Of a stretch of 64,000 nt of DNA, positions 660 through 64,000 are shown in pieces. A program made the translations under genes and the position numbers. Under the pieces are notes generated by a model. The model saw only the letters and a list, made by a program, of their open reading frames with translations, searched no databases and had not been told where the DNA came from. This DNA comes from Zoroaster sp. YZ-2022 (Eukaryota > Echinodermata > Asteroidea > Forcipulatida > Zoroasteridae). Within the stretch, counting starts at the first letter, position 1. Each line of letters opens with the position of its first letter. Where the stretch lies: assembly GCA_029582265.1 (NCBI GenBank), contig CM055837.1, positions 11,111,926 to 11,175,925 on the forward strand, in the 5' to 3' direction.

Positions 660-803
660 AAGTAAGACTTGTGGTGACACCATATTAAATGTTCATTTGA
701 GTAGTAATTAGTTCTGAAAAGAACTGGGGGTACAACTCTACGTTTCGATCAGTATGCTCTGATCGTCCTCAGGACGATCAGAGCATACGGATCGAAACGT
801 TGA
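660..803 (+). mobile_element. short repeat with AAGTAAG start and 29-bp terminal hairpin
   Basis: The left part (660-735) runs from AAGTAAGAC through GGTGACACC and GTAGTAATTAGTTC to GAAAAGAAC. It matches the insertion in the IBTK exon at 32338-32403. It continues into a near-perfect hairpin with arms 741-769 and 771-799 (29 bp, one mismatch, one-base loop). Related partial copies lie at about 29315-29430 and, more diverged, near 32840-32915. This is a dispersed non-autonomous repeat with no coding capacity. Confidence 0.6.
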
Positions 804-1590
804 GTTTTTTTTATTGTAATTTAATTTAACTCATTCACTTTATTATTTTGTTCGACTTGACGAAATAAAATTATGAGGAATTTTAGATTGTGTTTCTTGT
901 CCTTTTTGTAATGAGTATTTAAGTACATTGAAATTTTTCAATATAAAAACACATAAACAAACCGCCAAAAAAGGATGGGAATGATGTCGTCGTAATAAAC
1001 CACTGCCGCATAAATGGAGTTAAAATTCTTGGGCTTTACACAATTCTACAAATGCTAGGCATATGCTAGTGTTCGTTTTTTGGGGAATTGCATGTATATG
1101 ACCGGCTGACACTAAGTGACAGTATAGGGGTGACGATACTGAAATTTTAATCGTACGATATTATTTACCGGTACCCAAGACTCAATCTACATGTTTTCAA
1201 ATCGAATGGCCCCGGCCCTCACATGGTGCACTGCCTTCGCGCACACTAGGATCTGAAAAAATATCCTGTCTCTTCTACACATTTCCCCAATTTGACCAAT
1301 CGGTCATTATTGGTACGTTCATATACAAAAAAGCCTACTATTCCCACAAAACTCATTGTCAAGACTATGAACCCATTCAGCACGCATGCGCGCGAAGGGA
1401 ATTTCGACACGCAAAAAAAACCTACCATCAACGGAGAGGGAATGGCTCCATGAGTTCCACTGCAGAGCGCGCGCCTAGGGTTTCGTAGTCTCTCACTCAA
1501 GACCGGAATTGGCACTTTTACTGCACAAAACCCGTCGCTGCGGTGTAAAAGAAAAATACGCTTCCTGGTACATTTTCCCCAGGCACCCGA

Positions 1591-5437: not shown

Positions 5438-5531
5438 AAACATGGGTTAAAACACGGTTAAAAAAACGTTTAACCGAGACTCTTTATATTTTAACCGAGG
5501 GGATTTTCACAGTGTTCTCTCCCTCCTCCAG

Positions 5532-9760: not shown

Positions 9761-9765
9761 TGTCA

Positions 9766-16569: not shown

Positions 16570-16603
<34 letters not shown>

Positions 16604-18323: not shown

Positions 18324-21300
18324 AAGTGGCATTTTTATTCGAATTATTATTTATTTCACTATTATTATTATTACTTTTTTGTGGTGAGTGGTGGGAATAG
18401 TTGAGCAAGAGGATGTTGTGAATGTATCAACGGGCCATTTTGACCAACGCATAGGGGTAAGGGGAAGAAATTGCCTCTCTGCACCACCCCCTCAAGATTA
18501 AGACTGATTGGGCTGTGCCTCCCAATAATAAAGAACCAATGGTAAAGAACCTCACCATTATCACAAGTGACCACACCCCAAGAATAACACCCATCAAACA
18601 TTTATTTCAATTAATAAATGCCTATCCTGATTTCATTTACAACATTTTAGTATTAAGTGATTTTTGTTGAAAAAGATCAAATGTGAAACTTTCAAATTCA
18701 CATTTTTGAGACACATGAAACATCTACTATGCCGTTGATTCAGTGTGAGACAATTGAACAAACATTGTGGGTCACCATGAGGTACAGCTGGCATGACAAG
18801 TGACTCATATATGTGCTGGTCCAATTTTGATAATGACCGGTCTATTATGACGGTTAATAAATCTCCATGTGAACTTCCTGGGGGCATTTATAGATACATG
18901 TAGTACTACTATGAACCAATTTGTTGATATTTCAGTAAGTTGAAGGCAAAATACCATTCATTCATGCATTGTCTTATATTCAGGAAAACAAATCAGTGGT
19001 GTTTGTAAATACATCAAATTTGAAGAGATCTTTCCAGCCATGGCACATCAAATAATTAATGCTGAAAGTTCAATATCAAAATGGTGAAGAATTATAGTGA
19101 AACGTGACTGAGGGCGCTGTTTCACAAAAAGAACAGCAGCAATAACAGTGGACACAAAAACAAATCCAAACCATGCCCAAGAAATCATTGTTTCCTCAAC
19201 AAAATAACGACTGGAAAAACCCTACTTAGTTAACACAAAACACAAACAGTTCAGAGAACTAACTGACAATTAAAATATTGTTTCATGCATGAAACCAACC
19301 ATGATGTTGCATCTGTTCCAACTATGACATCACACCTGAACTCATGCTTTAAACTGACTGTGTTTAAATAGTACCTTTGCTTTAAACTGACTGTGTTTAA
19401 ATAGTACCTTTGCTTTAAACTGACTGTGTTTAAATAGTACCTTTGCTTTAAACTGACTGTGTTTAAATAGTACCTTTGCTTTAAACTGACTGTGTTTAAA
19501 TAGTACCTTTGCTTTAAACTGACTGTGTTTAAATAGTATCTTTGCTGTGTTTAAATAGTACCTTTGCTTTAAACTGACTGTGTTTAAATAGTATCTTTGC
19601 TGTGTTTAAATAGTACCTTTGCTTTAAACTGACTGTGTTTAAATAGTACCTTTGCTTTAAACTGACTGTTTAAATAGTACCTTTGCTTTAAACTGACTGT
19701 GTTTAAATAGTACCTTTGCTTTAAACTGACTGTGTTTAAATAGTACCTTTGCTTTAAACTGACTGTTTAAATAGTACCTTAGCTTTTAAACTGACTGTGT
19801 TTAAATAGTACCTTTGCTTTAAACTGACTGTGTTTAAATAGTACCTTTGCTTTAAACTGACTGTGTTTAAATAGTACCTTTGCTTTAAACTGACTGTGTT
19901 TAAATAGTACCTTTGCTTTAAACTGACTGTTTAAATAGTACCTTTGCTTTAAACTGACTGTGTTTAAATAGTACCTTTGCTTTAAACTGACTGTGTTTAA
20001 ATAGTACCTTTGCTTTAAACTGACTGTGTTTAAATAGTGCCTTTGCTTTAAACTGACTGTGTTTAAATAGTACCTTTGCTTTAAACTGACTGTGTTTAAA
20101 TAGTATCTTTGCTTTAAACTGACTGTGTTTAAATAGTACCTTTGCTTTAAACTGACTGTGTTTAAATAGTAAGTTTGCTTTAAACTGACTGTGTTTAAAT
20201 AGTACCTTTGCTTTAAACTGACTGTGTTTAAATAGTATCTTTGCTTTAAACTGACTGTGTTTAAATAGTATCTTTGCTTTAAACTGACTGTGTTTAAATA
20301 GTACCTTTGCTTTAAACTGACTGTGTTTAAATAGTAAGTTTGCTTTAAACTGACTGTGTTTAAATAGTATCTTTGCTTTAAACTGACTGTGTTTAAATAG
20401 TACCTTTGCTTTAAACTGACTGTGTTTAAATAGTGCCTTTGCTTTAAACTGACTGTGTTTAAATAGTAAGTTTGCTTTAAACTGACTGTGTTTAAATAGT
20501 ATCTTTGCTTTAAACTGACTGTGTTTAAATAGTACCTTTGCTTTAAACTGACTGTGTTTAAATAGTACCTTTGCTTTAAACTGACTGTGTTTAAATAGTG
20601 CCTTTGCTTTAAAGTGACTGTGTTTAAATAGTGCCTTTGCTTTAAACCGACTGTTTAAATAGTACCTTAGCTTTTAAAATGACTGTGTTTAAATAGTACC
20701 TTTGCTTTAAACTGACTGTGTTTAAATAGTACCTTTGCTTTAAACTGACTGTTTAAATAGTACCTTAGCTTTTAAACTGACTGTGTTTAAATAGTACCTT
20801 TGCTTTAAACTGACTGTGTTTAAATAGTACCTTTGCTTTAAACTGACTGTGTTTAAATAGTACCTTTGCTTTAAACTGACTGTGTTTAAATAGTACCTTT
20901 GCTTTTAAACTGACTGTGTTTAAATAGTACCTTTGCTTTAAACTGACTGTGTTTAAATAGTACCTTTGCTTTAAACTGACTGTGTTTAAATAGTGCCTTT
21001 GCTTTAAACTGACTGTGTTTAAATAGTACCTTTGCTTTAAACTGACTGTGTTTAAATAGTATCTTTGCTTTAAACTGACTGTGTTTAAATAGTACCTTTG
21101 CTTTAAACTGACTGTGTTTAAATAGTAAGTTTGCTTTAAACTGACTGTGTTTAAATAGTACCTTTGCTTTAAACTGACTGTGTTTAAATAGTACCTTTGC
21201 TTTAAACTGACTGTGTTTAAATAGTAAGTTTGCTTTAAACTGACTGTGTTTAAATAGTACCTTTGCTTTTAAACTGACTGTGTTTAAATATTATCTTTGC

Positions 21301-23255
21301 TTTAAACTGACTGTGTTTAAATAGTACCTTTGCTTTAAACTGACTGTGTTTAAATAGTATCTTTGCTTTAAACTGACTGTGTTTAAATAGTACCTTTGCT
21401 TTAAACTGACTGTGTTTAAATAGTAAGTTTGCTTTAAACTGACTGTGTTTAAATAGTATCTTTGCTTTAAACTGACTGTGTTTAAATAGTACCTTTGCTT
21501 TAAACTGACTGTGTTTAAATAGTATCTTTGCTGTGTTTAAATAGTACCTTTGCTTTAAACTGACTGTGTTTAAATAGTATCTTTGCTGTGTTTAAATAGT
21601 ATCTTTGCTTTAAACTGACTGTGTTTAAATAGTACCTTTGCTTTAAACTGACTGTGTTTAAATAGTACCTTAGCTTTTAAAATGACTGTGTTTAAATAGT
21701 ACCTTTGCTTTAAACTGACTGTGTTTAAATAGTACCTTTGCTTTAAACTGACTGTTTAAATAGTACCTTAGCTTTTAAACTGACTGTGTTTAAATAGTAC
21801 CTTTGCTTTAAACTGACTGTGTTTAAATAGTACCTTTGCTTTAAACTGACTGTGTTTAAATAGTACCTTTGCTTTAAACTGACTGTGTTTAAATAGTACC
21901 TTTGCTTTAAACTGACTGTTTAAATAGTACCTTTGCTTTAAACTGACTGTGTTTAAATAGTGCCTTTGCTTTAAACTGACTGTGTTTAAATAGTGCCTTT
22001 GCTTTAAACTGACTGTGTTTAAATAGTACCTTTGCTTTAAACTGACTGTGTTTAAATAGTATCTTTGCTTTAAACTGACTGTGTTTAAATAGTACCTTTG
22101 CTTTAAACTGACTGTGTTTAAATAGTAAGTTTGCTTTAAACTGACTGTGTTTAAATAGTACCTTTGCTTTAAACTGACTGTGTTTAAATAGTATCTTTGC
22201 TTTAAACTGACTGTGTTTAAATAGTACCTTTGCTTTAAACTGAATGTGTTTAAATAGTAAGTTTGCTTTAAACTGACTGTGTTTAAATAGTATCTTTGCT
22301 TTAAACTGACTGTGTTTAAATAGTACCTTTGCTTTAAACTGACTGTGTTTAAATAGTACCTTTGCTTTAAACTGACTGTGTTTAAATAGTGCCTTTGCTT
22401 TAAACTGACTGTGTTTAAATAGTATCTTTGCTTTAAACTGACTGTGTTTAAATAGTACCTTTGCTTTAAACTGACTGTGTTTAAATAGTAAGTTTGCTTT
22501 AAACTGACTGTGTTTAAATAGTACCTTTGCTTTAAACTGACTGTGTTTAAATAGTATCTTTGCTTTAAACTGACTGTGTTTAAATAGTACCTTTGCTTTA
22601 AACTGACTGTGTTTAAATAGTAAGTTTGCTTTAAACTGACTGTGTTTAAATAGTACCTTTGCTTTAAACTGACTGTGTTTAAATAGTACCTTTGCTTTAA
22701 ACTGACTGTGTTTAAATAGTACCTTTGCTTTACATTCAACAAGTGCGACGTGGATTGCCTGCAAGTTTAACATGCCCTGAATAGAATGTCAGCATTTCAT
22801 TGAATGAATATGAATGTAAAGTTTATTCCCCAAACAAAATTTGAAAAATGTAACTAATACATAAGAATAAAAATTATTGTTGAAATTGGACAGGTAGCAC
22901 AAAAACTGTCCTGATGATATAATGAAACATTTAATATCACGTCCAATTGCTGATTCTTCTTATTTCTAAAAATAGATGAACCTCCTGATTCTTTGGCGCA
23001 GTATTCAATTATTGCGCCGTCATTGCTAAAGAATGCTATTCAGACATGCCAACAAAGAGCTGCAAATGTTTGCTTAATATTTGCATTCCTAGTCCAATAC
23101 AAAGCAAATCTGACAAATGATGAGGTCACTGTTACATGTGTTTCTCATGTGGGGCACTCCCTTATTGGCAATCACACTACATACATAGAAAATTACTTTT
23201 TTTTGCAATGTCATAAGCTATTCAGATCAACTATGGATCAACTCGGATTTTGTCG
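18324..23255. other. array spacer C-D containing the minisatellite
   Basis: Up to 19346 this is the usual 3' flank. From 22732 it resumes with TACATTCAACAAGTGCGACG, the same point as CTTTACATTCAACAGTTGCG in other spacers. The sister spacers have CCTTTAAACAATGACTTTACTTTACAT at that place. The PIF-type MITE found upstream of B, C, F and G is absent here (near 23085), as an unoccupied or diverged site. Confidence 0.7.
19347..22731. repeat. 33-bp minisatellite, about 100 copies
   Basis: The unit is CTTTAAACTGACTGTGTTTA plus AATAGTACCTTTG (33 bp). It repeats about 100 times with a small set of variants at one site (TACC, TATC, TAAG, TGCC), a 31-bp form lacking GT, a form with TTAGCTTTTAAA, and a truncated form ending TTTGCTGTG. 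Blocks of variants recur in the same order, which points to higher-order duplication. Each unit carries a 7-bp inverted repeat, TTTAAAC/GTTTAAA, around TGACTGT. Because 33 is divisible by three, long artificial frames run through it on the minus strand. It replaces part of the C-D spacer. Confidence 0.97.
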
Positions 23256-23661: not shown

Positions 23662-26630
23662 ATGGATGTTCAGCGTGGACACTGTTGGCGTTGTGAGAAG
23701 GTTCTCCCCAAGCACGTAGTGCGTTGTGATAACTGTCCAATGGCTGAGTATTGCACCACATCATGCAGAGATAGAGACAGAGTCAGACACAGCTCTGTTG
23801 AGTGTCAGGTATTTGGACCAAAGAAATGCAACACTTGCGGCAAGACTGGTGATGTGAAAGAGGTAACTTTTGTTTTACAGCAATCTATGTGCAACTACTT
23901 GAATGTGTTTGTCATTTTTCATTCCATCCGTCTGTTTATTTGGGAATGCCTTTGCATATTTTCGGATAAATATATGGCCAATTCCATGCGAAGGTGGACA
24001 TGATTTAACCAAAAAGTTGGAAAGAATTTTCACAGGAAAAACGCCGTTCTCAAAAGAGAAATATTTTGATTATTCAAATCAAAAATTATTTTTGTTGAGT
24101 TTCTTTATATTCTTATTATATTGCATTAACTTTCATTATTCTGTACAGAACATTTTGGTAATTCATTTAACCCTCATACTTTTGCTGAACTTGAGTGGCA
24201 AGTAGCTATCGTGGTCAAAACCAGTCAACTGCCTGTTCACCCAAATGTGCACACAGGGGCATTTTTGGCTGGTTTTTACTGTCATTTTGACCACCCTCAA
24301 CAATACAAGACAATGTTTTTACCAGTCAAAAATGATCGACTCATTTTGACCTGTAAATGTACTTACTACACATAAGGTTTGACAGTGTTTGACTTATACC
24401 CTGGCAAATACGTATATCAACATATTGACTGATTTTTACCATTGCAGTAACAGGAGGGATAATAGCTCATTATCTTTTGTTTGTTTGTTGCTTTTATGCA
24501 GTATGTTAAATATTAATTTCTGAGGCTCTTTTTAATCATTCATTTAGTATTTTATGTAGCTGTCAGAAAGAGATGTAAGAGTCTGTGACACAACATCCTA
24601 GTGTAAATGGTCCATGGAGTATTTGCCATCTGTGATAAAGATAATCAGTGCATACACATTTTATCTTAACAGAATTTTGGGAGGACTCAAGTCTTTCAAG
24701 CCTTGGCCTCAAGTTGAGTCAAGTCCTTGGGGCAGAGACTCAAGTGAGGTCGAGTCATTTTGTGGCAAAGACTTGAGTCGTGTGGAGTCAGCCAAAATTG
24801 CAACTCGAGTCTGTCTTGAATCAAGTAGTTTAAAGTACTAGGCTTGGGATGATCATAAAATCCTTGACGAGTGTTATCAGTTTGAATACATATTTTTAAT
24901 TCCCTCTTTCTATCCCCTCCGCTCTCCCTCCCCAGTGTGCACAGTGTAACAATACATGGTACTGTAATAAGAAGTGTCAACAGCGTGACTGGACAGCTCA
25001 TAAAAATACATGCAGAGAAATGAGAGATACTATCAAATCCTGTGCAATAGAAATTGGTACAAGAAACCTTGAAATTGCAAAAGCCGAGAGAGTTTGTTTT
25101 TCACCTCATTACTTTGGAAACACCCTATCTATTGACTTTCTTAAACTTGATGGCAACGAATGGTCTGAAGAAGGTAAAACAAAAGAAGACTTCACAAGAG
25201 ATTACCATGTCTTATCTGCTGGTTGTGGAGACTTGCGCAACACTGTGTTAACGGCTGCTTCCTTGCCTGCCAAGTACCAGGGAAAACTTCACATCACTCT
25301 GAATGATTTTGACCCTTTTGTCATGGCAAGAAATGTCTTGTTTCTGTACATGTTGGTTCGGTTTGCAGACACTGAGGACATTGAGAGCAGATTGACTACC
25401 ATCTGGTACTCAGTCCACATTTCAAAGAGAGAGTACGACCTGATCAAGACAAGCTTAGATGAGCTCATTCAGATGAATGCTCAAAGTCTCCATGATGTCA
25501 CTAAAGGGCTGGTCAGTGTTCTGGATACAGATCTTAGCTATCTGCGTCAGGTTTGGAAAAAATGGCAATTATTAGAATGTCAACGAGACAAAAGCACCTG
25601 TATCAATCTAAGAAAACAAAGGAAGGCAGAGAACCCTATCACAATGAATGAAACAATGCCTGTTTATCTGAATCGTTTGCCTTTAGAAGAAAGAGAGGTT
25701 ATGAAAGAGTGGTTCGACCATGGGCTATTTTTGCCTCTTGAAACTAAACAAACAGACATGCCATTTGACAATATGACACTAACTGGAAGACAATCTTTAG
25801 TGTATCAGCGTGGCAGAAATTTACTTGGTAGTTCAGACACCTTAGATTTAACATCAAAGGCACCGAAAGATTACAAATTTGTCTATTGTATCAACGTACA
25901 TTCATTTCCCTTTGTAGCATGGGATTGCTTAAGAGTGAGAGAGTCCACTTCCAGATCCTACTCATCCCCGATGGTAATGTATCACACCTACGTGACAAAC
26001 ATTCTCAAAAAGATGAAAAGTCTCATCCTTCAGGGAAGGCTTTATGTCCACATTTCCCTGGCCAATTGTCTGGACTTCCCTAATCATCATTTGTCCCTAC
26101 AGATGCCAAACTATGACCGGATCTTTACATCCAATCTTGCTGACTATGTTGGCTTTGCTAAGCTCCTCCAGACTTTCAAGCCATTGTTGAATTGTAGTAA
26201 CAGCTACTCCACTATCGTCACTGAGACAATGAGCTGGTTTCGAAATATACCTAAGGCTCACCATCAAGATCTGATCTATGGCACTCCGGAGTCAGACAAA
26301 TGCTACTCATCATTCTTCTCAGATAGGAGAATTCAACCTTCGTTATTACCTGTAGCCCCCATCAATTTGTTGGAGTATTATAACAACATCTCTCACTTCC
26401 TCATGTATATGCGAGCAGATATCATGGGAGGGGGACTTGGGATACAACCACTCAAAGATGTGCCATCATTGAAGACAGTGATGACATATCATGGTATGCA
26501 GATGCGTGACTTCAGGAAGGAACTGAACCGACTTGTCCCTTTTCGGTATCGTGTGAATGCACGAGACCTGAACTTTATGCATGGCCATGACATAGCGGTG
26601 GAGTGGTATCTGTCACAAAAGGACACTTAG
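23662..26630 (+). CDS. gene D: double-MYND zinc finger / DUF4470 protein, 631 aa
   Basis: Coding exons 23662-23862 and 24936-26630 join in phase 0. Both MYND fingers are complete; finger 1 differs slightly from the others (KHVVRCDNC against KHLVHCDDC). DUF4470 motifs are present (GCGDLRN, TLNDFDPF). It is two residues shorter overall: MFEDDP before TMNE is replaced by a shorter ENPI, and a residue is gained in the variable C-terminal patch (DLIYGTPESD). Intron 2 carries an extra element of about 290 bp at 24170-24461. The AATAAA seen about 280 bases after the stop in sister genes is missing here; the 3' flank is rearranged from about 26900. This is the last gene of the left array. Confidence 0.84.
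24170..24461. mobile_element. MITE-like insertion in intron 2 of gene D
   Basis: CCCTCATAC at the left and GGAGGG at the right are inverted, flanked by TAA. Sister introns are continuous across this point (CATTTAATAGCTCATTATC), so the empty site is visible. The interior is shared, in opposite orientation, with 41190-41605. Confidence 0.65.
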
Positions 26631-26913
26631 AATCATCATAGCCAAGATCTATTAATTTTTATATTATTATTAATTTCACTATTATTATTATTACTTTTTT
26701 GTGGTGGGGGTAGTCGGGCAAGAGGATTTTGTGAATGTACCAACAGACCATTTTGACTATAAGGGGTAGGGGAATATATTGTCTCTCTGCACCACTACCG
26801 ATGATAAAGGACCTCACTGTTATCACAAATGGCCATGCACCAAGAGGTCTTTATTCAACAGTAACACCCATCATCAAACATTTATTCCAATTAATTCCAA
26901 AATTTCAGTATTA

Positions 26914-27730: not shown

Positions 27731-28270
27731 GTTTTTGTAGTCATAGACACTCCAAAAGCACCGAGTATAAAGTGCTTCATATATTACTTCGGTATAAGGT
27801 CAAAATCAAATTAATTAGTTATAGTAACAAAACATAGTTTACATCATGGTGTATGGTAAGCATGAATTTCAAAAATAACTCCTTGGCAATGAAATAAAAT
27901 AAATTGAAATTTGCATTAAAAATGTGGTGAAACGATGTACGTTTCTGTATATTTACAGGTACGTTTCTGTCTATTTACAGGTACGTTTCTGTATATTTAC
28001 AGGTACGTTTCTGTATATTTACAGGTACGTTTCTGTATATTTACAGTAATGCTTCGTTCATTTACAGGCACGCTTTCTGTCTATTTACAGGCACGCTTCT
28101 CGTATATTTACAGAATGCGTTTCTGTATATTTACAGGCAATGCTTCTGTATATTTACAGGTACGTTTCTGTATATTTACAGGTATGTTTCTGTATATTTA
28201 CAGGTATGTTTCTGTATATTTAAAAGTAGTTTCTGTATATTTAGAAGTGGTTTATGTATATTAAGTCAGT
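27731..28270. other. junction of left MYND array with IBTK intron, including a 22-bp repeat
   Basis: Up to AATGGTGAAG at about 27730 the sequence is array spacer; after it comes single-copy DNA. From 27935 to 28262 about 14 copies of a 22-bp unit, GTACGTTTCTGTATATTTAC plus AG, follow. The same junction occurs at 60911. Confidence 0.75.
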
Positions 28271-28570
28271 CACCATCGTTCCCCCTCGCCACAGTGGCAG
28301 ATACCTACCGCAACCCAACAAATTTCATCCCCACGAAGTAACACATCCACCCAGTTGTTGGACTTTGATGAAATAAGTACACCTAGCCTCATGCACAGCA
28401 TTAATGGCTGGGCTGTACAGTACTTATCCATCCAATTCAAAACAAAACCAGTCAATGGAGTTTGATGGGTTAATGTATACATGTATGTATAATATCTCCT
28501 TATATGCACGCATGCCTGTCTTTCTTCAGTCTATACATCTGTATGTCCCCCCTTTACCCTTAAGGTTTAC

Positions 28571-31500
28571 CTGAACTGTTCGGCACCTCTTCTTGATTTG
28601 GTTGGCGGTGACGTTGCCATGGTTACAGAGGCATTTTCCATGAGCCTCTGCTCTGCCATCTGTAGCTCCCTGAATGACGCAGAGGACAGTGGGACTATTC
28701 CCGGTGAACTACCCCTGAAATTGGAAACAAATACAATGAAGATATTTTCATGAAAAGATTACCACCGATCAAACCGTTTAAAGGGGCCGTAACGTCACAA
28801 TCAGAGCAGACATTCAACAGGGCATGGAATTCGTGTCCTAGTTTAAGATGAGCACAGTGACTGAACATTACTGGCTCATTTATGCAGCAGCAACAGTAAT
28901 ATGACCTTATCATGTGAGGTATTATTTTCAGTCACTTAGCCAATCTGAAACTACCGTTCAAATGAAACAAGCATTTTAATGCCCTGTTGATCATTACGAT
29001 ATTGTCCCTTCAACACTTATGTTATGTACAGTTGAAACAGAGATTTGTTCAAAATAACAGGAAGACTTCAATGGATATATGGCACTCTTTTGTGCATTTT
29101 TGAATTGATCAAAACATTGAAATTGTTGACTTGTTTTGTCAAACTTACTTTGTTTTAAACCTTACGATTGAATCAATCTTCCCTAGAAATAATTTTGTCG
29201 AAGATGCTGTCACTTTTAAGAAAAGTAAAATAATTTTTCTTTTTCATTTTCAATTTTCAATGTTACAATGAACACATTTATTTTTATTAATAACACAATG
29301 TAATTATTGTTAAGTAATATGTTGAAAGACCGTTTGCGGTGAAAAAAATCTCTTTTGCGTAGTAATTAGTTCTGAAAAGTACTTGTGGTCATAAATCGAC
29401 GTTTCGGTCAGTATGCTCTGATCGTCTTCTGGACAATGTAATTATTGTTTTTGTTTCATTGTCAATAGGAAATCTAACCAAAATGGCCGCAGCATGTAAA
29501 GACCAGACATGCAACTTTGTAATTGCAAAAAAAGAGGAAATGGCCGAGCACACAAAACTTTGTACAGTGTTTTCAGTTTTCTATAGCACTATTATTAACC
29601 CTCCTACTGATAGACCATTTGAAACCATTCAAAATTTCCACTTTCAAAAATGCCCATTGGTTTTGTACACACATGGTGATAACATTTGAACAGTGTTGGT
29701 AGCAAGCTTTACAACCATTCAAATCCATTCAAATGCATAGAGGGTCCATTGATTCACCACTTAGAAGTATCCAAACAAGGTTTTGTATTAGCTGTACTAC
29801 CATTTGGAAAGATCCAAACAAGGTTTTGTATTAGCTGACCTACCATTCAAAACCATTTGGGGAATCAATACTGTACACAGTTATTTCACCATTCAAAACC
29901 ACAAAAGCGAATGGTTTCAAATGGTGCATCAACTTGTATGAAAAAAGGTACCAAAAGTAGGAGGGTTAAAGAAAAAAGAGGAAATCAGCTGATCAGCTGA
30001 AAAGTTGCATGCCTGTAGAACTATATAAATGCTTAAATGTAGTCATTTTCATGACCTATAGTGCCTCACCATGGGCATGCTGGCTTATTTTCTCCCACTG
30101 GAGACACGGGGGTGGGTGACGTGGCGCTATCTGCCGGCCTCTCCTGTTCTTTCTTGCGCTGTTTCTGTGACTTTTTGGCTAGAGGGTTGCCAATTCTCGA
30201 GGATGACTTCCTTGGGGACGGCGACAAGAATGCTTCCGATTGCATAATGCTGCGTAAATCTGGTCCTGTTACATCTGGCATACTAGGACTGACAAAAGAA
30301 ACCACATGTTTTTTTAAACGAGAATTTTATTTGTCCCAAAAATACAAAAACATCAATATATTGGGTTTTTTTCCTGAGTGGAAGCAGAGAAGTCCATGGA
30401 CCCATTGTCAAACACCAGAATGGCACTTAAATAACTCCATCGGTTCTTAATGAGACGTGACATATAATATTCTGCAATAGAAATTTCATTATTGAATCTC
30501 TTTCTTGAATCCCTTTTATGGATTGGTGGTCCTACGAACAACAGAGTCATCAACACGGTTCTTCTCAGAACCAACAACTTATAAAAAATTTACACAACAA
30601 CAACGACGACGACGACGACGACGACAACAACAACAATTTAGACTTATATAGCACATTTATCCACCAAGCTGGTGCTCAAGGCGCATTACATTATTACCCC
30701 TGCTCATCAGGCTCATAAATCATTCCTGAAACCATCTCAGCTCCCTGGGGAGTATACAGCTCAATTGCTGCCATTTCGGCGCATATCAAACAACAACCAA
30801 CTCTGCCCTCACAGGTACCCATTTACACCTGGGCGGAGGTAAAGTGTCTTGCTCAAGGACACTAGCACCATGGTCGCAGCCAGGATTCGAACCCACATTC
30901 TGACAACTCGGCCATCAGAACACAAATCCGATGCACTAAACCGGTCGGCCATGGCACTCCATGCTATCAATGCAAACCTATTTGACCCTATAATAATGGA
31001 TAATTGGATTTCTGTTGTAAATAATCAAACAGTTGAATCCATTTGTTGGGGTATTTAGGAATGATCATTAATTGAATGAATCCACAGTCACACTGCTATG
31101 TTCAGTAGTGTACATGGAATATCCCATCAGTCTCTTTACCTTTGCCATTTTTTCACCTGGTTGTCTTCCTTATCCATGTTCTTATCAGGAATGGTCTGGC
31201 CGGTCTTCTTCCTCTTGTCGGCAATGACCTCTGACCTCTCTTTCTTAATCCACTCTCCCTGTAGACTCTGTAAGCCCGAGGATGCATCCCGGTCACCGGG
31301 ATGCATCATGGCGACTTCCGATTCCCTGGTCCCACGATTCTGTTCTCCTTGAAGTACCTTGATGATATCGGCACTCGGTGGATCCGTCGGTGAGGACACC
31401 GGGCTAGCACTTGTGGAGCTATTTCCCGCTTCAGTGGTGCCTTCTGCCATCTCATTTATCGTAAATGCTAAATCATCAGTTTCCATGGAAACAGTTCTGG

Positions 31501-34500
31501 GAATCACATCCGGTAGTGCGGCAGCCGCCAGGTGTTCCCCCGACTCGCTGAAGGACAAGCTCTTTCTGATCTTTCTTCCGACTTTCCTCCTCGCTTTGGC
31601 CTTCTTGATTATGTCGTCGAAGTTCCCCTGGTCAAAGCTGATCATCTCGCTTCCTGTGACCTCTTGACCTTTGACATTGGTGGCGTTGTGGACCTGTGCT
31701 GAGGGTTCCTCTTCGATGTGGCTGATGTCTGGTCCTTCTTGATACGGTGTGATGATGCGATATGGCATAGATGGAATCTGTTATAAAATACAGGTCTTAA
31801 ATTATATGAGTTATGACTTTGATGCACATATTGTTCAATGCAGCTATTCATTTTGTGAACATCTGGTGGTGAAGTGCACTCAGGCTACAAGTTTGGGGCA
31901 TTTTGCAGCATAGTTCTATAGCAATGTTTTGACGCAAAAGAAAAGAAATCTGAAAATATTTGGTCAAATAGCAGAAAAAACAGGCAGTACATCTTTAACC
32001 CTAACCACCCCAAATCCTGCAAAATCCTCCAAGGGGCACATTTGGGGGAAAATTCAGCACTGTTGGAATCTGGTACTTTCACCTCTTCAAATGGGGCAAA
32101 ATTACTACCTGCCAAGAAGTACAGGCCATAAGTGCTGTATATAAAAGATCAATGAAAATGCACTGTGCATTTTGTAGATAAGGGCATGTTTCCAAAAGAG
32201 CACTGATGGATTTTGGAGGATTGAGGAAGGTTCCTAGCCAGAATACCTAGGGGGTTAGGGTTAATTTCTCCTTTGCCTTACCATATCTTTGTACGCCTTA
32301 GTAAGGTCCAGGAGAACGTCATTACTCAGTATCTCCAGTTCTTTTCAGAACTAATTACTACTCAATTGAGATTCCACATGGTGTCACCGCAATTAGTCTT
32401 ACTTATCTCCAACGTCCTCGCTTCAAGTAAGCATGCTAGGTTCAGACCGATGTACTGATGGCATGTCTTCTTGAGCTGGTCGGCTCGATAGACCGAGGCA
32501 AACTGGAGAAGCTCTGCAACATTCCTCAGGGAAACTATCACAAGAATAGGGAAACAGGTTTGTTTATTTGTTTGCTTTATGTTCATAATACTTCCCATTC
32601 TACACATAATCCCAGCAAATACTATTTAAGGAGCTGCATCGGCAAACCTCTTCATTCTCCTGACGAAGATTAGAGCAGGCTAATGGAAACGTTGAGAATA
32701 ACCCGTGAAGTCCCCATTGAAGTCCCCATGGTTCTCCCTGAACCATATTTCTCACTTAGCGACAGTAGAGAAAAAACAAGTTGCCCGAAATTGGTTCTCC
32801 CTTGAACCTTTCTCACTTAACGAAGGTTGAGATATGAGTTGTGCGATAAGGTTCTTTTCAGAACCTGTACCTCAGCTTCGCGTTAGTTGAGATAAACACA
32901 TGGTGTTACCGCAAACCGAAACGATATCGATATTCCACCATGCAAAGCCTCAAAACTTATAACATCACAATTCACAATAATATTGATAAATGCAATGAGG
33001 GAGTATAAACACTCATGTCAATTAATAATTATAATACTGCTGAAATAATAGAATTTGAATTCACAGTCCACATTAGTTAACCAGTTCGCGTCAGAGGCCG
33101 TGTATACACGCAATTTTTTTTTGCACCGTGGATCGGAGTGTCTAAACACGCCATAGGAAACTCCGGAATATTTGTATGCATGCTCGGTTGAGCCACGCGT
33201 GTACGGTGACATGCTCGGAAGACGTGGCCACGCACTGTGGAAGCTTCCATTAACATGTGTGTGGGAAAAAGAAACCCGCACAGGGGCCCAGAAAAACTTT
33301 TTTATTCCCGACGCGAACTGGTTAAAGAAGTCTACCCAAATTCAGCCAACCAGCCAGCATGGCCAGTGGGCAGAGAAAAGCCAAAGAACCAACAAATCAT
33401 TTTGTTCAGTACAGGGACTAGCTAAAAAAGAAAAAAGACATAGATTCAACAACTTCATTTTGTTCAGTGCAAGTACCAAGTAAAAAATTTCAAAAAGTAG
33501 ATCAAAATCAAAAATTTTCAAATGAACATCGTAATGTCAAAACCCGTTTTTGCAGTGAATCTCAAGTTTTGATGACAATTCATTTCACATTTGTGTTCGA
33601 GTATGAACCTGCCTTTACTTCACGTGCAAAAAACATTTCCTTCGTTAATATATCCTTGATTTCAGTTTGTGTCTATTTCTATGCATTATCAAAAATTTGC
33701 TGAAGGAATAATCCCGAAAAAAACAAAGATTGGGAGTTAAAAATGGTTGCTAAGTAACTTACTTAAGTCGACAAGAGCCACCTCGCATATCTCCTTGAGT
33801 CGACCAATGAGAAGCTGCTCGGCCGTGGTTAGCGTGTTACACAGCAACTCGATGTCAGTGCAGGACCTGACCAATGGGGCGTCATCAGTGTAGATGTACT
33901 CTAGAATGATTGACAGGATGGAGCCGGGGAGGGGCATCTTTAAGGGGTCACTCGACGAGGCCTGATTCAAAGAAAAGCCATATCGATTCAGGTTCAACCA
34001 ATGGATACTAAGCTTGGGCGAATTTTTTTTTTTATCCACGATATATATCGGCAAATATATGTTGCGATTTTCGATAATATCGCGATAATTTTTTCATTCA
34101 TGCAGGATTGCTTTAGAGCCGATAACCACAGGTATGTACCCCTAATAATAATAATAAAGATTTGTAGCGCGCACATATCCACCCTGCTGGGCGCTCAAGG
34201 CGCGGAAACAAAGAAAAACATGAATTACAAACAATATACAATGATAGCATAGGGAAAAAACAAAACAAACAAGCGTCACAATAAATTGCAAATTCGTTGG
34301 CAGTGCGTGTATGTACTTCTGAAGATTCTGAAGTTCGCTTTTGTTTCTCACTTCCAAAAGCTGAAAAGACTGTTCTAATTTGTTCTAAATTGAATCACAT
34401 TGTCGATTTTTTTTTTAATCGCGATATATTTGCTGATATCTCGATAACTTAAAAGGTTCTCGATATCATAATCAAATAAAAAAGGTATCGCAATATATGA

Positions 34501-36430
34501 TATTATCGTGTTATCACCCAAGCTTAATGGATACAGATGAACAGTGGGACTCAGCTTCAACAAACAACACAGGGTCTACACAAAATATTCACTCTAGTGG
34601 TTGTTTGTTATTATGATTCATGGCTGCAATGCAAATACATAAAATAGGAGCCGTATTCAGTTAAACCAAATGTTCATTATATTGGGCCCCCATGCGATTG
34701 CTCATGGCTACTTACTTATTATTGGTCATTAAAACCCTCCTACAATCAGTGCAATTTTTGAAACAACCCATTCAGGCCACTCCAAGTCATTAGCTGTTGT
34801 TAGTGGCCTCCTATGGTTACCCTTCTGTGCACTGTCACGTCATTGAGATTGCAGGGTAAGGTGGTCTCCCATTGATACAGTGCAGGCCATACTAATATGT
34901 TCAAACATTTACAGTGGCCTTGGGTGGCACTCAGTTGATTTTGTAAGATTACTTGGAAAGGACAGCAGGCTTGTACATTTATGTACTGAAGGTTGCTCAA
35001 GAACAGAATTTTGTGGATCGGAGTGGCCTCCATGTGTAGGAGGGTTAAACTATAAAGACTGTGTGACGTAAGGCACCCCCACATGATCAAGTCTCAACCA
35101 ATCACAATGTCTGAACTGTTGTAAAATCACGATGAAAATATTTTAATACAAAAAATGTAAAATACAATGTATCATACCTCTATCCAGCCACACCCAAGCA
35201 TGCCCTGAAAATACTCAAGTCTGGCAACCAGGATACACTTATGGCATGGATATAACGTTCCTTCCTCCGAGCAGAGCACCACGTCGCACAGCTGGGAGAG
35301 CTGCCGTCGGTTGAACGCATCAAGTGTTTGGCATCAAGTGTTTTTTTTTTTTTTTTAATTTAAATTTAAACACTGCCCAAAAGAACAAGAAGCATGAGGG
35401 ATGCCGAAGCTAAAGTTCATATATTCTGAGTAGGTGGCAGATTAACCCTAACTCCCTAGGCCCATTTGCTTACACATAACCTGAATCCTTCCTAACTCCC
35501 TAGGCCCATTTGCTTACACATAACCTGAATCCTCCAAAATCCTTCAGTAGTAAAGCAAGCACATGACATGTATGCACACATGTGTTTCTAATGTGTGATA
35601 CATGTACATGGCCAGGGACCCTCCCTGCATGCATGGAGCAATAAACAGTGTCCACTGACCTTGCAATCACCACAACAAACATGGATGTACATGTACCATG
35701 GAAAGGCAAGTATGCCTAATAACCTCAATCCTCCAAAATCCTTCACTTTAGCAAAGAGCATGTAGCATGTAACCTCAATCCTTCAAAACCCTTCACTTTA
35801 GCAAAGAGCATATAGCATGTAACCTCAATCCTTCAAAATCCTTCACTTCAGCAAAGAGGATTTTGGAGGATTTGGGAAGGTTGGGGTTAATCAGATGATG
35901 ATGAACATTAGATTTGAAGGACTGACCAGATGGAACATTCACAACAGAGGCAGGTAAAGTGTTCCAGAGCCTGGCATGAGAAGCTAAAAAGGACCTCTGA
36001 TGCTGTGAGGTACAAGATTTTGGAATAACAAGTGTATGTTGATGGGAGGCAGATGACAGCCTGGTAGAACGGTATGCTTTAAGCTGAGGTAGTTTAAGAC
36101 TGTCCAGTGGATGAGGCAGCAGAGAACACGGCCTTTTGCGGAAGACTGTGAGACCAGCAACTTGTCTACAATGCCTCGGAGATTGAATACCAAGTGCACG
36201 TATGTTATGGTATTACACATGTGTATTTTTGCCAATAAAATACACACTTGCCACTGAATTGAGTCAGTATACCAGACATCATTCAAATGATGCAATTTTG
36301 CAAAGGACTTATTGAGCATTTACCTTGAGTACAATATCATGAATAGGGTCTGTTGTATCACCCTCGGAGAGAAGCTGCGACATATGTTTCACAATCAGAG
36401 ATGGTCCTACCACCGGAACTTCGGTTAAAA
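28571..36430 (-). CDS. IBTK: IBTK-like gene, left copy: BTB2 to linker exons (partial)
   Basis: Seven exons on the minus strand with GT-AG borders. 36324-36430 (VPVVGPSLIVKHMSQLL). 35178 to about 35330 (CDVVLCSEEG, CHKCILVARLEYF, start of BTB2). 33763-33961 (ILEYIYTDD, AEQLLIGRLKEICEVAL). 32282-32534 (NVAELLQFASVYRADQLKK, BACK-like), interrupted by an insertion. 31140-31777 (ITPYQEGPDIS, long linker). 30070-30288 (GPDLRSIM, KKSQKQRK). 28571-28714 (SSASFREL). Phases agree at every junction I could check; a Trp codon is split between the last two. The order and motifs match vertebrate IBTK, an ankyrin-RCC1-BTB protein that in mammals acts as a CUL3 ubiquitin-ligase substrate receptor. The ankyrin, RCC1 and first BTB exons are not in the 3 kb to the right, so this copy looks 5'-truncated. 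Its C-terminal exons are not downstream in this window. The acceptor of the 35.3-kb exon is not clear. Confidence 0.85.
29313..29448. mobile_element. AAGTAA-start repeat with long target duplication
   Basis: An element of about 120 bp begins AAGTAATATG, includes GTAGTAATTAGTTCTGAAAAG and ends in CAGTATGCTCTGATCGTCTT. It lies between two copies of ACAATGTAATTATTGTT (about 16 bp). It belongs to the family at 660-803 and 32338-32403 and sits in an IBTK intron. Confidence 0.65.
29595..29969. mobile_element. MITE with TTAACCCTCCTAC termini
   Basis: The 13-bp ends TTAACCCTCCTAC and GTAGGAGGGTTAA are exact inverted repeats. The interior is rich in ACCATTCAAAACCATT motifs. About 375 bp, non-coding, in an IBTK intron. 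A second member with the same ends is at 34733-35048. Confidence 0.8.
30595..30960 (-). mobile_element. tRNA-derived SINE
   Basis: On the minus strand an A-box-like TGGCCGACCGG (30941-30951) is followed about 50 nt later by a perfect B box GGTTCGAATCC (30884-30894). These are the internal RNA polymerase III promoter parts. The body continues to GCGCC-type sequence and ends in a simple (GTC/GTT)n tail at 30595-30640. Tail fragments of the same family lie at 4953-5010 and 34145-34205. It sits in an IBTK intron in the gene's own orientation. Confidence 0.85.
31995..32264. mobile_element. MITE with TTAACCCTAACC termini
   Basis: The inverted ends TTAACCCTAACC and GGTTAGGGTTAA enclose about 270 bp. 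The interior has TCCTCCAA/TTGGAGGA subterminal repeats. A related, longer element is at 35452-35890. The telomere-like CCCTAA at the tip is part of the terminal repeat. Confidence 0.75.
32338..32403 (-). mobile_element. 66-bp insertion in an IBTK coding exon, candidate introner
   Basis: Read on the minus strand, the exon motif LLEARTLEI is followed by this insertion, then by ILSNDVLLDL. The target sequence TGGAGATA occurs on both sides (32404-32411 and 32330-32337), an 8-bp duplication. The insert begins AGTAAGAC and ends GAAAAGAAC. Unspliced, it puts a stop in frame (AAT TGA). Using its GT (32402) and AG (32341) as splice sites removes 62 nt and leaves 12 nt, four codons, in frame. It matches the first part of the dispersed repeat at 660-735. 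Confidence 0.7.
34009..34526. mobile_element. MITE with TAAGCTTGGG termini, carrying a nested SINE tail
   Basis: TAAGCTTGGGCGA at the left and TCACCCAAGCTTA at the right are inverted repeats; subterminal ATCGCGATAT motifs are also mirrored. Inside, 34145-34205 is a SINE tail fragment ((TAA)n then GCGCGCACATATCCACC and GGGCGCTCAAGGCGC). It lies in the IBTK intron between 33961 and 35178. Confidence 0.7.
34733..35048. mobile_element. MITE with AACCCTCCTAC termini, second copy
   Basis: Inverted ends AACCCTCCTAC and GTAGGAGGGTT match the element at 29595-29969, while the interior differs. About 316 bp, in an IBTK intron. Confidence 0.75.
35452..35890. mobile_element. MITE-like element with internal AATCCTTC repeats
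   Basis: TTAACCCTAACTCC at the left and GGTTGGGGTTAA at the right are imperfect inverted ends. Inside, ACCTCAATCCTCCAAAATCC and variants recur six or more times. It is related to 31995-32264. Confidence 0.65.
35891..36290 (-). mobile_element. LINE reverse-transcriptase C-terminal remnant
   Basis: Minus-strand translation gives LPHPLDSLKLPQLKAYRSTR, then QRSFLASHARLWNTLPASVV and SFKSNVHHHL. The RLWNTLP...SFK pattern is the usual C-terminal end of the ORF2 polyprotein of CR1/L2-type LINEs. No catalytic part is present and the frame opens only here, so it is a dead 5'-truncated insertion in an IBTK intron. A poly(A)-like run on the same strand at 35341-35357 may be its tail. Confidence 0.75.
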
Positions 36431-39748: not shown

Positions 39749-41051
39749 TTAACTTGTGTCCTTGTCTTTCTTCCAAAGGGGTGTTGCAATGACTTGTGTA
39801 GCCCGTTCTACAGTGATATACTCATCAGTTCTGTCCTGTATGTGGTAATGGGCTCGGAGTTCCTCCAGTGCTTTTTCCTCAATCTGTAAAATGGAGGGTA
39901 AGTCATTCATTCACTGATGTGATTTTAATTGATTTGAATTCAAATTTGTGCTTAAAACTTCTGATAACTAATATCTGTTCATCATAATGAAGTTGTGATC
40001 TAACATTCGGATTTGTTAGCACGCATTCAATTGTGGAAAAATGAATCACAGCATTGATCCATTTCAAGTTTGTAATATCACCAGAAGTCTATTACCTACA
40101 TGAAGTGTGACAGCCAGCTGTAGTCCATACCATGGTATTGTACTCCAAATGCGCACACGCACAACCAGCATGGTTACGAGTTTTGCTACACTGCCCGGCC
40201 TGCCGTGGGGCATCATGGGATCAGGCGCTTGACACGCAAAGCTAGTTCCGAGAACTAGATCTAGACGTGGGCAAACCATCAGCTGTGGGGAGAATGCGAT
40301 AAACGCAAAGGTGTGTGCACGACATATATCCTCTCATATACCGGGTAAGTCTCCCAGAATGCACTGCTTCTTTTAGAGTCCTTGCGTGTACGTAAGTCTG
40401 TGGAACAAAATGTCATGAATGGACCAATTCCATTGTTCTTGGAGTACTATGCCATGGACTAGGTTAGTACATGTGTGGCACACTTTATGTGTAGGTAATA
40501 GACTTCTGGTATCACATTTTGTCAAAAATGACACCATGTCAGACGGAATTTCTTGCGACATATAGTCACATCACCAACTTCACATCCAAATAGTTTTGTG
40601 ATTAGAATTCAATAATTTTGTAATCAAGTAATTACCAAAGGTTTACACTTTATAATATGTAAACACTTGGCAACTAAAATTAGACGTTTTTTGGTGAATT
40701 TTGTGAAAGTTTTCACCTGGATGAGAGAAAATGGTTTCTTGAGAGTCTTGGCGAGCGTCGCTTGCTGCTCGTTCTCCGTCTGGATGATTTTGGAGAAGCT
40801 GACATGACCCACTGGAGGAGAACTGGCTTGAAGATGCCAAGGACTAACAAGAAAACAAGGGGAAAAAAGATACTTATGTAACTAAGTGTAGACATCTGTC
40901 TCAAATGTACAAATTTTGCAACGTGTGCCCTCAACAGCTCATGCACGGTACGAATACCAGCATTAAAGGTACGGTATAAAAATAACCAAAAAGTCAAATT
41001 GTAATGTGATACTTATTTGGTGTAAAGTGGATGAGGGTATTAATTTTCCCC

Positions 41052-41087
<36 letters not shown>

Positions 41088-41887
41088 ATATATATATATT
41101 TCTGTCTGAGCTGCTGTCACTTTTAAGAAAAGTAATTTCCAGTTACAATTTAGGAAAGAGTACTCTGTCATAAATTCCTTTTGTGACTGCAAGGGTCAAA
41201 ATCAGTCAACATTTTGAAATACTTGCCAAGGTATATCTAGTGCACTTAAAAGTCGAACACTGTCAAACCTAAGTACGTTTATAGGTCCAAGTGAGTCAAC
41301 CGCTTTTGACTGGTAAAAGCATTGTCTGGTATTGTTGAGGGTGAGCGGCGTAGCCAGGACTTTTTCAGTGGGGGGGTGGGCACAGGGGGGCATTGCTTTT
41401 CAGTGGTTTTTTTCCCTTTTCTATTTTTTTTTTTTTTGAGGCACTATCAGGATTTTTTGTGGGGGGGGGCAATGCCACTGTTGAGGGTGGTCAAAATGAC
41501 AATAAAAAAAACAGTCAAAAATGCCCGTGTGTACATTTGGGTCAACAGTCAAAACAGGCAGTTGACTGGTTTTGACCTCTACAGCTACTTGCCACTGAAG
41601 TTAATAGAATGTATACAAAACATGTGCGTTCACTCTTTTCTCGTGAACCACATCAAGGAATAAGCTGAAACTTTCACAGGTTGGTTGATTTATGTAACCT
41701 CATTGGTGTAACTTTTTATTATTTATCAATATCAATATCAATAACACGCAATCATAAATGAAATGAAAATCAATCTTACTTTTCAGGTGTTTCTGGATGA
41801 CTTATCTCTTGAGAGGATGCTTCAGTTGATGACCAGAGACTGTGATCAGACTCCGAGGCTTGTCTTGTGCGAGATACGATACCAAAA
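39749..41887 (-). CDS. IBTK: IBTK-like gene, right copy: last three coding exons
   Basis: Exons on the minus strand: 41780-41887 (FGIVSRTRQASESD), 40717-40843 (NPWHLQASSPP, HVSFSKIIQTENEQQ, KPFSLIQ) and 39749-39883 (IEEKALEELRAHY, DEYITVERATQV, PLWKK, then TAA). All borders are GT-AG and the phases are continuous. The NPW, SLIQIEE and YITVER motifs and the final PLW match the conserved C-terminus of vertebrate IBTK. These exons should come after one like 28571-28714, whose phase fits 41887, but that exon lies to the left here. With the corrupted copy at 61.7-64 kb placed upstream on the minus strand, the order becomes correct and genes E-G fall inside the intervening intron. Confidence 0.85.
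40080..40510. mobile_element. MITE with ACCAGAAGTCTATTACC termini
   Basis: ACCAGAAGTCTATTACCTAC and its inverse near 40489-40510 bound a 431-bp segment in the last IBTK intron. ATC occurs on both sides. The interior holds mirrored CATACCATGG/CCATGGACT pieces. No gene inside. Confidence 0.75.
41190..41605. mobile_element. MITE-like repeat, interrupted by a nested insertion
   Basis: The sequence from CAAAATCAGTCAAC to GCTACTTGCCACTGAAGTT is homologous, inverted, to 24170-24461. It is split by a 135-bp G-rich insert (41344-41478) flanked by an 11-bp duplication, TGTTGAGGGTG (41333-41343 and 41479-41489). Confidence 0.7.
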
Positions 41888-42026
41888 CTGTAACCAAGTA
41901 TAGGAACATTTTAAAGGGATGAATTACTATTCATGGGTGGCAATAACTGCACTGGTATGTGGGAACGTACGTTCATTTGAACATGCTAGTTTTCAAGAAA
42001 TATATCAATCCTAAAACTATCACTAA

Positions 42027-44607: not shown

Positions 44608-44794
44608 GTGAGTTAACCGTAACAATAAGCAGCCTATCATGTAAAAACAAATTAAAAAAGTGAAAAGATTTTTTGACAATGATAATTTCTGTTTACACTG
44701 GATAAGAAATTAATTACATGTTCACTCTCTAGACTCTGCCATTTTGGCAAACTATTGAGTGCATTGTTTTATCACTTCTCATACAGTGATCATC

Positions 44795-60910: not shown

Positions 60911-63900
60911 GAGTTTTTGTGTCTGAACTCCAAAAGCACCCAGATAAAGTGCTTCAATATTACCGGGATAAGGGGAAAAAAAAAATCAATTGTTATGTAA
61001 AAAAAATAGTTTAATCATGGTGTTGGTAATAATCAAAATTTCAAAAAAACCCCCAAGAAAAAAGTTTTAACAAAAAAATTTAAATTTGCATTAAAAAATT
61101 TGGTGTTTTCCCCTTCAAATTGAGCAGTTTTAAGTCAAAAAAAAAATTTGTAGTTCATTAAAAGGCAACTTTAAAAAATTATTTTTGAAGAGTTTCTGTA
61201 TTTTGAAATATGTTTTGTATAAAAATGTTTCGTATTTAAAATAGTTTTGATATTTAGAAGATGTTTTTGTATATTTAAAAAGTTTCATATTTTGAAATGG
61301 GCTGTATATTTAAAATAGTTTTGTATATTTAGAAATATTTCATATTTAGAAGTAGTTTCTGTAATTTAGAAGATACTGTATATTTAAATTTTGTTTTGTA
61401 TATTTAAAAGTTTCTGTATATTTAAAATATATTTTGTATTTTACGGTATGTTTCTGTATATTTAAAGAGTTTCGTATATTGTCACCCCCATGGGAGATCC
61501 TCACAACCCCAAAAAATTTTATCCCCCAATAAACATCCACCAGTTGTTGGACTTTTAAAAAAAAGACCTACCCCATCACACATCAATGGTTTGGGTGTAC
61601 AGTATATCCCTCCCAAATTTAAAAAAAAAACCAGTTGGAGTTTAGGTTAAAGAATGTATAATATTTCCCTTTTATAGATTGTTTTTTTCGTTTTAAAATC
61701 TGTATGTCCCCCTTTTCCCTTAAGGTTTATGAACTGTTGGGGACCTCTTCTTTATTTTGGGGTGACGTTTTGGGTTTCAGGGATTTTCCAACCCTGCTCG
61801 CCACCCTTTCCCTGAAGACGGAAGGCGGGACTATTCCTTTAAACCCGTGGAAAAAATAATGAAATTTTCATGAAAAAAATTCCCCCAACAAACCGTTTTA
61901 AAAACCCAATCAGAGAGACATTCAACGGGGGTGGAATTTGTCCCGGGTTTAAGATGACACAGGACTGAACCTGGGCCTTTTGCGGCAAAATAATATTGAT
62001 TTTTTCGTCACTGAGCCAATCTGAAACAAAATTTTAATCCCTGTTGATCAAAGAATTGTCCCTTCAACACTTATGTTATGTACAGTTGAAACGGTTTTTT
62101 CAAAATAACAGGAAGACTTCAATGGATATTGGCACTCTTTTGTGCATTTTTTAATTGATCAAACATTTTTGTTTTTATTCAAACTTACTTTGTTTTAAAG
62201 CTCGATTGAATCAATTTCCTAGAAATAATTTTTGGGAAAATCTGTCACTTTTTAAAAAAAGTAAAATAATTTTTTTTTTCATTTTCAATTTTTAATTTAG
62301 AATCATTTGTTTTCATTAAAAACTGTAATTATTTTATTATGTTAAAAGACCCCTTTGTGAAAAAAAATTTCTTTTGGGGAGTAATTGTTCGAAAAGTTTG
62401 GTTATAAACCGTTTGGCGTATGTCTGATGCCCTTTTACAAAGTAAATTACTGTTTTTTTTTTATTTTCAAAGGGAAAACTAACCAAAAACAAAGTAAAGA
62501 CCAATTTCAACTTTTTAAATTCCCAAAAAAAGGAAAAAGAACAAAACTTTGTCAGTGTTTTCGTTTTACCTTTTTTATTAACCCCCCTACTGTTTGACCA
62601 TTTGAAACCATTTAAAATTTCCACTTTCAAAAATGCCCATTGGTTTTTTTTTGGTGAAACATTTGAACAGTGTTGGACAAACTTTTCAACCATTCAAATC
62701 CATTCAAATGCATAAAGGGGCCATTGATTTCCCACTTAAAATATCCAAAAGGTTTTTTAAGTGACTCCCTTTGGGAAAAATCCAAAATTTTGGGGAAATC
62801 AATATTAAAGTTTTTCACCATTCAAAACCACAAAACGAATGGTTTTAAAAGGTGCATCAACGAGAAAAAAGGGCCAAAAAATAGGGGGTTAGAAAAAGGA
62901 AATCAGCGATCGCTGAAAAGTTTATCCTGAAGAACTATATAATGTTTAAAAAGTCTTTTGACCTGGTGCCTCCCGGGGCCGGCTTTTTTCTCCCCCTGGA
63001 GACCGGGTGGGTGACGGGACTATCTGCCGGGCCCCCCGTTCTTTTTTGGGGGCCCGTTTCTGTGACTTTTGGCCGGGGTTTCCAACCGGGAGGATGCTTT
63101 GGGGGGGGCCCACAAAAATGCTTCTGATTGCAATCGCGAATCTGGGCCCAAACGGCATGGACGACAAAAAAAACCCCATGTTTTTAAACGAAATTTTTTT
63201 TGTCCAAAAAAACAAAAAATCGATTTTTGTTGTTTTTTTTTTCCGGCTGAAAAGGGAAATCCATGGACCCCTTGTCAAACCCGGGGAAAGGAAAAAATAT
63301 CGTTCTTAATGAGCGTGACTTTTGCAATAAAATTTTTATTGAATTTTCTTGAATCCTTTTTTTTTGGGGGGTTTTTTCAAAAAATTCTCCCGGTTTTCTG
63401 AAACCCAAAACACGAAATTAATAAAAATAAAAATTTAAAAATAATAATAATAATAATAATAAAAATAAAAAATTAAAAATTAAAAATTATAAAAATAATT
63501 TGATTTTAACTTTATCAACAAACTGGGCTCAACTTATTACTTTTCCCCCCTCATCAGGCATAAAAATTTTTTGAAACCATCTCAGCTCCCCCGGGGATCA
63601 GCTCAAATTTCGCCATTTTCATTGGGCTAACAAAAACAACAACCAATTCTGCCCTCACGGTCCCCCCTGGTGGGGAAAAAGGGTTTTGGTAAAGGTTTTC
63701 AAAGGGCCGCACCTGGTGGCCGGGGTTTGCCAATTCTGGCGACTGCCTCAGAACACAACCGATACACTAAAAAGCCAGCCTCACCCATCCGCAAACCTAT
63801 TTATATAATAATGGATAATTTTTTCTGTTGTAAATAATCAAAAAGTTAATCCATTTGTTGTATTTTGGGAAAGTTTTAAGAAAGAATCCATGTCAATAGT

Positions 63901-64000
63901 CACACGTATGTTTAGTATTAATGGAATATCCCATCAGTCTTTTACCTTTTCCATTTTTTTCCCCGGTTGTTTCCCTTTTCCATGTTCTTTTGGAATGGTC
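60911..64000 (-). pseudogene. IBTK: corrupted copy of the 27.7-31.1 kb IBTK region
   Basis: From the junction AATGGTGAAG the sequence follows 27731-31160 in order: the 22-bp repeat remnant (61190-61480), the exon 28571-28714 counterpart (about 61730-61840), the ACCATTCAAA MITE (about 62585-62890), the exon 30070-30288 counterpart (about 62970-63160), the SINE (about 63440-63780) and the start of exon 31140-31777 (from about 63945). Nearly every line has deletions and stretched homopolymers, so no exon is translatable. The pattern resembles uncorrected read errors more than natural decay, because coding and non-coding parts are hit alike. Confidence 0.75.

Follow-up and report, generated by a model that had tools for sequence, protein, structure and literature searches.

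The locus analysed here, a window of 64,000 nucleotides from the sea star Zoroaster sp. YZ-2022, raises the question of whether a short mobile repeat that entered a coding exon of IBTK has made a new intron or has simply broken the gene. A preliminary description of this DNA proposed the former and named the insert a candidate introner. The idea is reasonable, since its splicing arithmetic equals that of the Aureococcus type described in the available part of PMC9860276. If spliced, the insert would represent an intron gained from a retroelement in which the start of reverse transcription fixes the 3′ end, in a phylum for which no introner report was found in the open-licence literature. Otherwise the exon has merely received an ordinary insertion, and the case warns against calling exon inserts introns from GT–AG arithmetic alone. 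Until RNA shows otherwise, we consider an ordinary damaging insertion to be more likely than a new intron.

The insert and its target-site duplication

The interrupted exon comprises the following features.

32282..32534, minus strand: IBTK exon c with the insert, equivalent to Patiria residues 883–941 (boundaries from sequence, not RNA)
32330..32337, strand not applicable: left copy of the target-site duplication TATCTCCA, 8 bp
32338..32403, plus strand (element sense; antisense to IBTK): the insert, 66 bp, from sequence
32404..32411, strand not applicable: right copy of the target-site duplication TATCTCCA, 8 bp

Both copies of TATCTCCA are exact and enclose the 66-bp insert, and a T at its edge leaves a one-base ambiguity in the exact cut. 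The duplication adjoins both ends of the match to the repeat family described below exactly, which argues against chance. Read on the minus strand from 32534 to 32282, the exon encodes ...LLEARTLEI, is broken for 66 bp, continues as ...LSNDVLLDLTKAYKDM and ends at a GTAAGG donor. The empty site translates without interruption (LEARTLEI/LSNDVLLDL), and retention of the insert gives SKTNCGDTMWNLN and a stop after 13 codons; that retention brings a stop had been claimed. There is good support for the central observation of the preliminary description, that a mobile repeat entered a coding exon and duplicated its target.

Homologues were sought with the joined exons as the query; 7993 candidates were scored and 140 proteins were found, of which 120 were listed. 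All 120 span the site and none has an inserted residue there, a comparison made at the protein level. Three of them are sea-star proteins, which are also the best matches among those listed: Patiria miniata (70%), Asterias amurensis (66%) and Acanthaster planci (64%). Since the highest identity is 70%, the species of the window itself seems not to be represented. The exon had been described as otherwise continuous with vertebrate IBTK; the continuity stands, but the gene is that of a sea star and its nearest proteins are the three just named. As the listed homologues lack an extra residue at the site, the insert is a gain in this lineage or individual. We take it to be a genuine insertion into an IBTK exon, specific to the lineage, of what is probably a retroelement fragment.

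Relatives of the insert and its probable origin

Three further clean copies of the repeat lie in the window, none of them inside a recognised exon, so that the family has a single exonic copy there.

660..806, minus strand: related copy; 660–724 matches the insert, and 734–769 and 771–806 are 36-nt inverted arms with a hammerhead-like core
29312..29432, minus strand: related copy; exact 17-bp direct repeats adjoin both sides (29295–29311 and 29433–29449)
32660..32915, plus strand: related copy in the neighbouring intron; a hammerhead-like core (32660–32690) and hairpin units are followed by 32851–32915, which matches the insert

With the insert as the query, the matches were 661–724 (85%, E 1e-13), 29326–29382 (75%, E 1e-7) and 32851–32914 (72%, E 0.001). 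A profile search of the window, using a family profile built from the same four clean copies that it recovers, gave no further clear copy, only weak matches, including a noisy one at 62396–62364. Departures from the family majority number four at 62 scored sites in the exon copy and 8/64, 6/55 and 15/53 in the others; having the fewest, the exon copy is possibly young, and four copies are too few for dating the insertion. Neither a comparison of the element letters with paper texts nor a scan of viral contigs with four patterns gave a match.

Three of the four clean copies (exon, 660 and 29312) share the 3′ end TTACTT and have different 5′ starts, the match of the exon copy at this end being subject to the one-base ambiguity of its duplication; the 3′ side of the 32851 copy continues beyond this common end. 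The preliminary description took AAGTAAG, an antisense form of this end, as a donor-like start common to relatives at 660 and 29330 and hence as a family trait. This holds for the 660 copy but not for the other, which begins AAGTAATAT, and thus for one of the two relatives named. Exact, abutting duplications flank the exon copy (8 bp) and the 29312 copy (17 bp). The 660 copy is accompanied by 14-nt direct repeats (93%, one mismatch) at 642–655 and 814–827, four and seven bases off its ends; no exact flanking duplication was found for the 660 and 32851 copies, nor any flanking repeat for the latter. The common 3′ end, the variable 5′ ends and the unequal duplications point to target-primed reverse transcription as the probable mode of insertion.

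A small non-autonomous DNA transposon of hAT-like type is suggested by the 8-bp duplication at the exon and by the resemblance of many published introners to DNA elements (in the available part of PMC9860276). Such an element would be expected to show a constant 8-bp duplication and terminal inverted repeats, but inverted repeats of at least 10 nt were not found at the insert ends, the duplication at the 29312 copy measures 17 bp, and the 5′ ends vary although the 3′ end is common to three of the four copies. Both the duplication lengths and the ends thus make this origin very improbable.

The features of the family agree with those of a Penelope-like retroelement (PLE). The parts of the PLE literature available to us describe target duplications with lengths of 8, 9 and 10 bp, pseudo-LTRs (pLTRs) inverted head to head, with palindromes, microhomology at a 5′ junction and a tail that extends into the first codons of the ORF (PMC3846280), minimal type I hammerheads (PMC7761336) and reverse transcription that begins at fixed internal sites (PMC11167929). 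As in the pLTR/tail insertions covered there, the family combines a 3′ end common to three of four copies with 5′ truncation and short, unequal duplications, and it further resembles PLEs in a palindrome in one copy and a likeness at the 5′ junction, and possibly in a hammerhead-like core. The head-to-head palindrome, formed by the arms of the 660 copy, is present in one of the four clean copies. The core (CTGANGA, stem, GAAAC) lies upstream in two of the three other copies, and when a stem of five or more pairs is required it occurs once in the window versus none in 60 Markov windows. In the core at 32660, stem I was assigned by eye as six bases in front of the core paired with the six that follow GAAACGTT; the stretch that was folded (32652–32697) stopped after four of the latter and kept those four pairs, and in this form was no more stable than its shuffles (z = −0.08). 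An Rfam search returned no hammerhead match. At the 5′ junction, the gene sequence GTATCTCCA and that of the 660 copy, GTACCCCCA, agree at seven of nine bases, a likeness of the kind left by microhomology joining; only CCA matches without a break at the junction of the exon, and the 29312 copy has no such likeness. Points of difference are that the insert is only 66 bp and that the 17-bp duplication exceeds the 8–10 bp given in the available text of PMC3846280. No reverse-transcriptase or GIY-YIG ORF, as full PLE copies would carry, was seen with Pfam applied to four window ORFs, and no full copy was recognised.

We somewhat favour the reading that the insert is the 3′ end (pLTR/tail region) of a PLE, most likely disruptive where it lies. 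The 3′ end of a PLE RNA would have been copied by target-primed reverse transcription, copying would have been truncated 5′ at the foot of a hairpin, and the truncated piece would have landed antisense in the coding exon. The gene copy would be disrupted, by a stop if the insert is retained or by a shifted frame if splicing uses its strong donor alone, and the insertion would be recent, perhaps segregating, or would lie in an incomplete copy.

The related copy in the neighbouring intron contains, at 32729–32915, three hairpins of the form GGTTCT...GAACC in tandem; after each comes sequence resembling CTCACTTA...TTGAGATA. The element hairpin GTTCTTTTCAGAAC resembles the histone 3′ stem-loop (RF00032), with matches at 684–730 (21.6 bits) and 30552–30596 (27.7 bits), the second of which lies near the IBTK 3′ exons. 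Both are below the gathering score of 34, and a histone origin was rejected; they are read as hairpin units of the element and not as histone genes. In a test for a conserved RNA fold, the insert itself folded only mildly better than shuffled sequences (z = −1.84).

Splice signals and the state of the gene copy

The proposed removal concerns one further feature.

32341..32402, minus strand: hypothetical 62-nt GT–AG intron, donor TAA/GTAAGA at 32402, acceptor GAAAAG/A at 32341

The claim that splicing at the GT and AG of the insert removes 62 nt and leaves four codons is arithmetically right. The frame is kept, LEI-KLEI-LS is read with 12 additional nucleotides (four extra codons), and GGAGATAA would be joined to AACTGGAGATACTG at the predicted junction. 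This arithmetic is weak evidence when taken alone, and the pair of scores is unusual rather than extreme, because among 20,000 random 66-mers of the window placed at the site 14.6% provide an in-frame, stop-free GT–AG pair and 2.2% reach the observed summed score.

The signals were scored with a vertebrate-type matrix and ranked against the GTs and AGs of the minus strand of the window. The insert donor scores 4.9 (95th percentile of 3873 GTs). The acceptor scores −0.4 (61st percentile of 3567 AGs), which is background; it ends in AAG and has no pyrimidine tract. Five native acceptors of the gene score 2.3–7.4 (81st–97th percentile), their boundaries being taken from the sequence and two of them uncertain. 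Native acceptors c and d are weak too (3.0 and 3.8), and native donor b, TAA/GTAAGT, with a score of 6.5 is almost identical to that of the insert, so that the insert may be spliced. The 62-nt pair is not singled out, because a 47-nt in-frame pair inside the insert scores almost the same (4.4 versus 4.5). Three other GT–AG pairs outscore it, none of which keeps the frame: two use a downstream exonic AG, and the third lies within the insert and meets a stop. Joining the insert donor to the next exon, which starts near 31777, likewise shifts the frame; the preceding exon lies near 33755–33964. The insert-matching part of the 660 copy is shorter by two bases, offers the same donor and acceptor and would also add 12 nt; that of the 29312 copy offers no GT–AG pair, and the insert in the opposite orientation offers only a poor one. 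Judged by these signals, the insert has a donor but no evident efficient acceptor, and the chance of mis-splicing or retention would be no lower than that of clean removal.

The possible effect of four extra residues was considered on a structure model for homologue P0105, built with 16 sequences, which was used for local helix boundaries only; its mean pLDDT is 55 overall but about 93 around the insert. The insert site follows residue 196 and separates a short helix (193–196) from a helix at 199–212, and Leu194 and Leu197 beside it are invariant in the 16 sequences. On this model, four extra residues might be tolerable. A working introner, in which the antisense donor and acceptor remove a 62-nt intron and KLEI is added to a hinge of the protein, would accord with this position, with the strength of the donor, with the rarity of the summed score and with the equivalent pair in the 660 copy, and it would follow the published Aureococcus arithmetic. 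The background-level acceptor, the competing pairs, the invariant leucines, the pairless 29312 copy and the lack of another exonic copy in the window speak against it, as does the incompleteness of the IBTK copy, and we regard it as unlikely.

The remainder of the gene was located as follows.

28573..36428, minus strand: IBTK exons, covering Patiria residues ~540–575 (36.4 kb) and 770–1283 (35.3–28.6 kb), by mapping of three sea-star proteins
39752..41892, minus strand: last three IBTK exons, covering Patiria residues 1283–1411; upstream of the other exons, so that the order is not collinear
61376..64000, strand not applicable: noisy second copy of 28168–31196, 71% identical

Patiria residues 1–528 and 576–769, searched separately with permissive settings, have no convincing match in the window. 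The noisy copy has 458 versus 54 gap columns, deletions far outnumbering insertions, and its error is equal in exons and introns; it probably represents long-read sequence left unpolished, or else a false duplication, and its counterpart of exon c would be expected just beyond base 64000. The locus is thus either partly duplicated or wrongly assembled. Because the IBTK copy is incomplete and out of order in the assembly, it can no longer be argued here that the insert has to be spliced for the gene to work. The reality of the insert is unaffected by this disorder, because its duplication is exact.

The insert may accordingly lie in a partial duplicate without function, or in sequence that the assembly has duplicated falsely, where neither function nor constraint need be assumed. 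The misplaced last exons, the missing residues and the noisy second copy all fit this explanation, which is compatible with disruption by a PLE fragment. The exons themselves speak against it. Those found are open, the splice sites read for exons a–e are usable, and exons a–c are 83–91% identical to Patiria and Asterias and 80–86% to Acanthaster; exon c itself shares 83–88% identity with the three sea stars, a level fitting a working gene, and exon d is lower (49–57%). The IBTK copy is thus not old debris, and a partial or false duplicate is a tenable explanation but not the one we would expect. With a PLE fragment as the favoured identity, the insertion most likely disrupts the gene, or has no effect if the copy is an incomplete one.

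Where the long IBTK intron before the last exons would be, there are repeated blocks (about 80–98% identical) carrying plus-strand MYND-finger/DUF4470 genes, assigned by Pfam on two; the blocks lie at 5515–19346, 24472–26895 and 44613–60921. A long tandem minisatellite at 19779–22788 is open in more than one minus-strand frame (KHSQFKAKVLF and LNTVSLKQRYY units).

Comparison with known introners

Searches of the literature found no report of a transposable element that was inserted in an exon with a target duplication and spliced out, and no Penelope-linked intron gain in an exon as far as titles and the opening parts of abstracts tell. A more general role of PLEs as intron makers in an echinoderm can be outlined. 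The start of reverse transcription would set the TTACTT end, which in antisense is the donor AAGTAAG in two of the three copies ending there, and truncation at a conserved hairpin would leave an AG. Antisense exonic copies of this kind could be removed and, with 8-bp duplications, would add four codons whatever the length between. We hold this extension to be unlikely, slightly more so than splicing of the present insert. If true, retroelement-made introners would widen a field dominated, in the accessible text of PMC9860276, by families resembling DNA transposons.

The nearest published counterpart is the introner of Aureococcus, which carries both splice sites and adds 12 bp, four from the element and eight from the duplication (PMC9860276, in the part available). 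In the same text, animal introners are reported from two groups only and most introner families look like DNA transposons. Membership in the class would call for introns of similar sequence in several genes, alike as far as both splice sites and removed from the mRNA. The sea-star insert resembles the Aureococcus introner in that 4 bp of element and the 8-bp duplication would remain in the transcript as four codons. It differs in that the Aureococcus introns form a family described there as such, whereas here a single exonic copy with putative splicing and a weak acceptor is found, its source is probably a retroelement and its host is an echinoderm.
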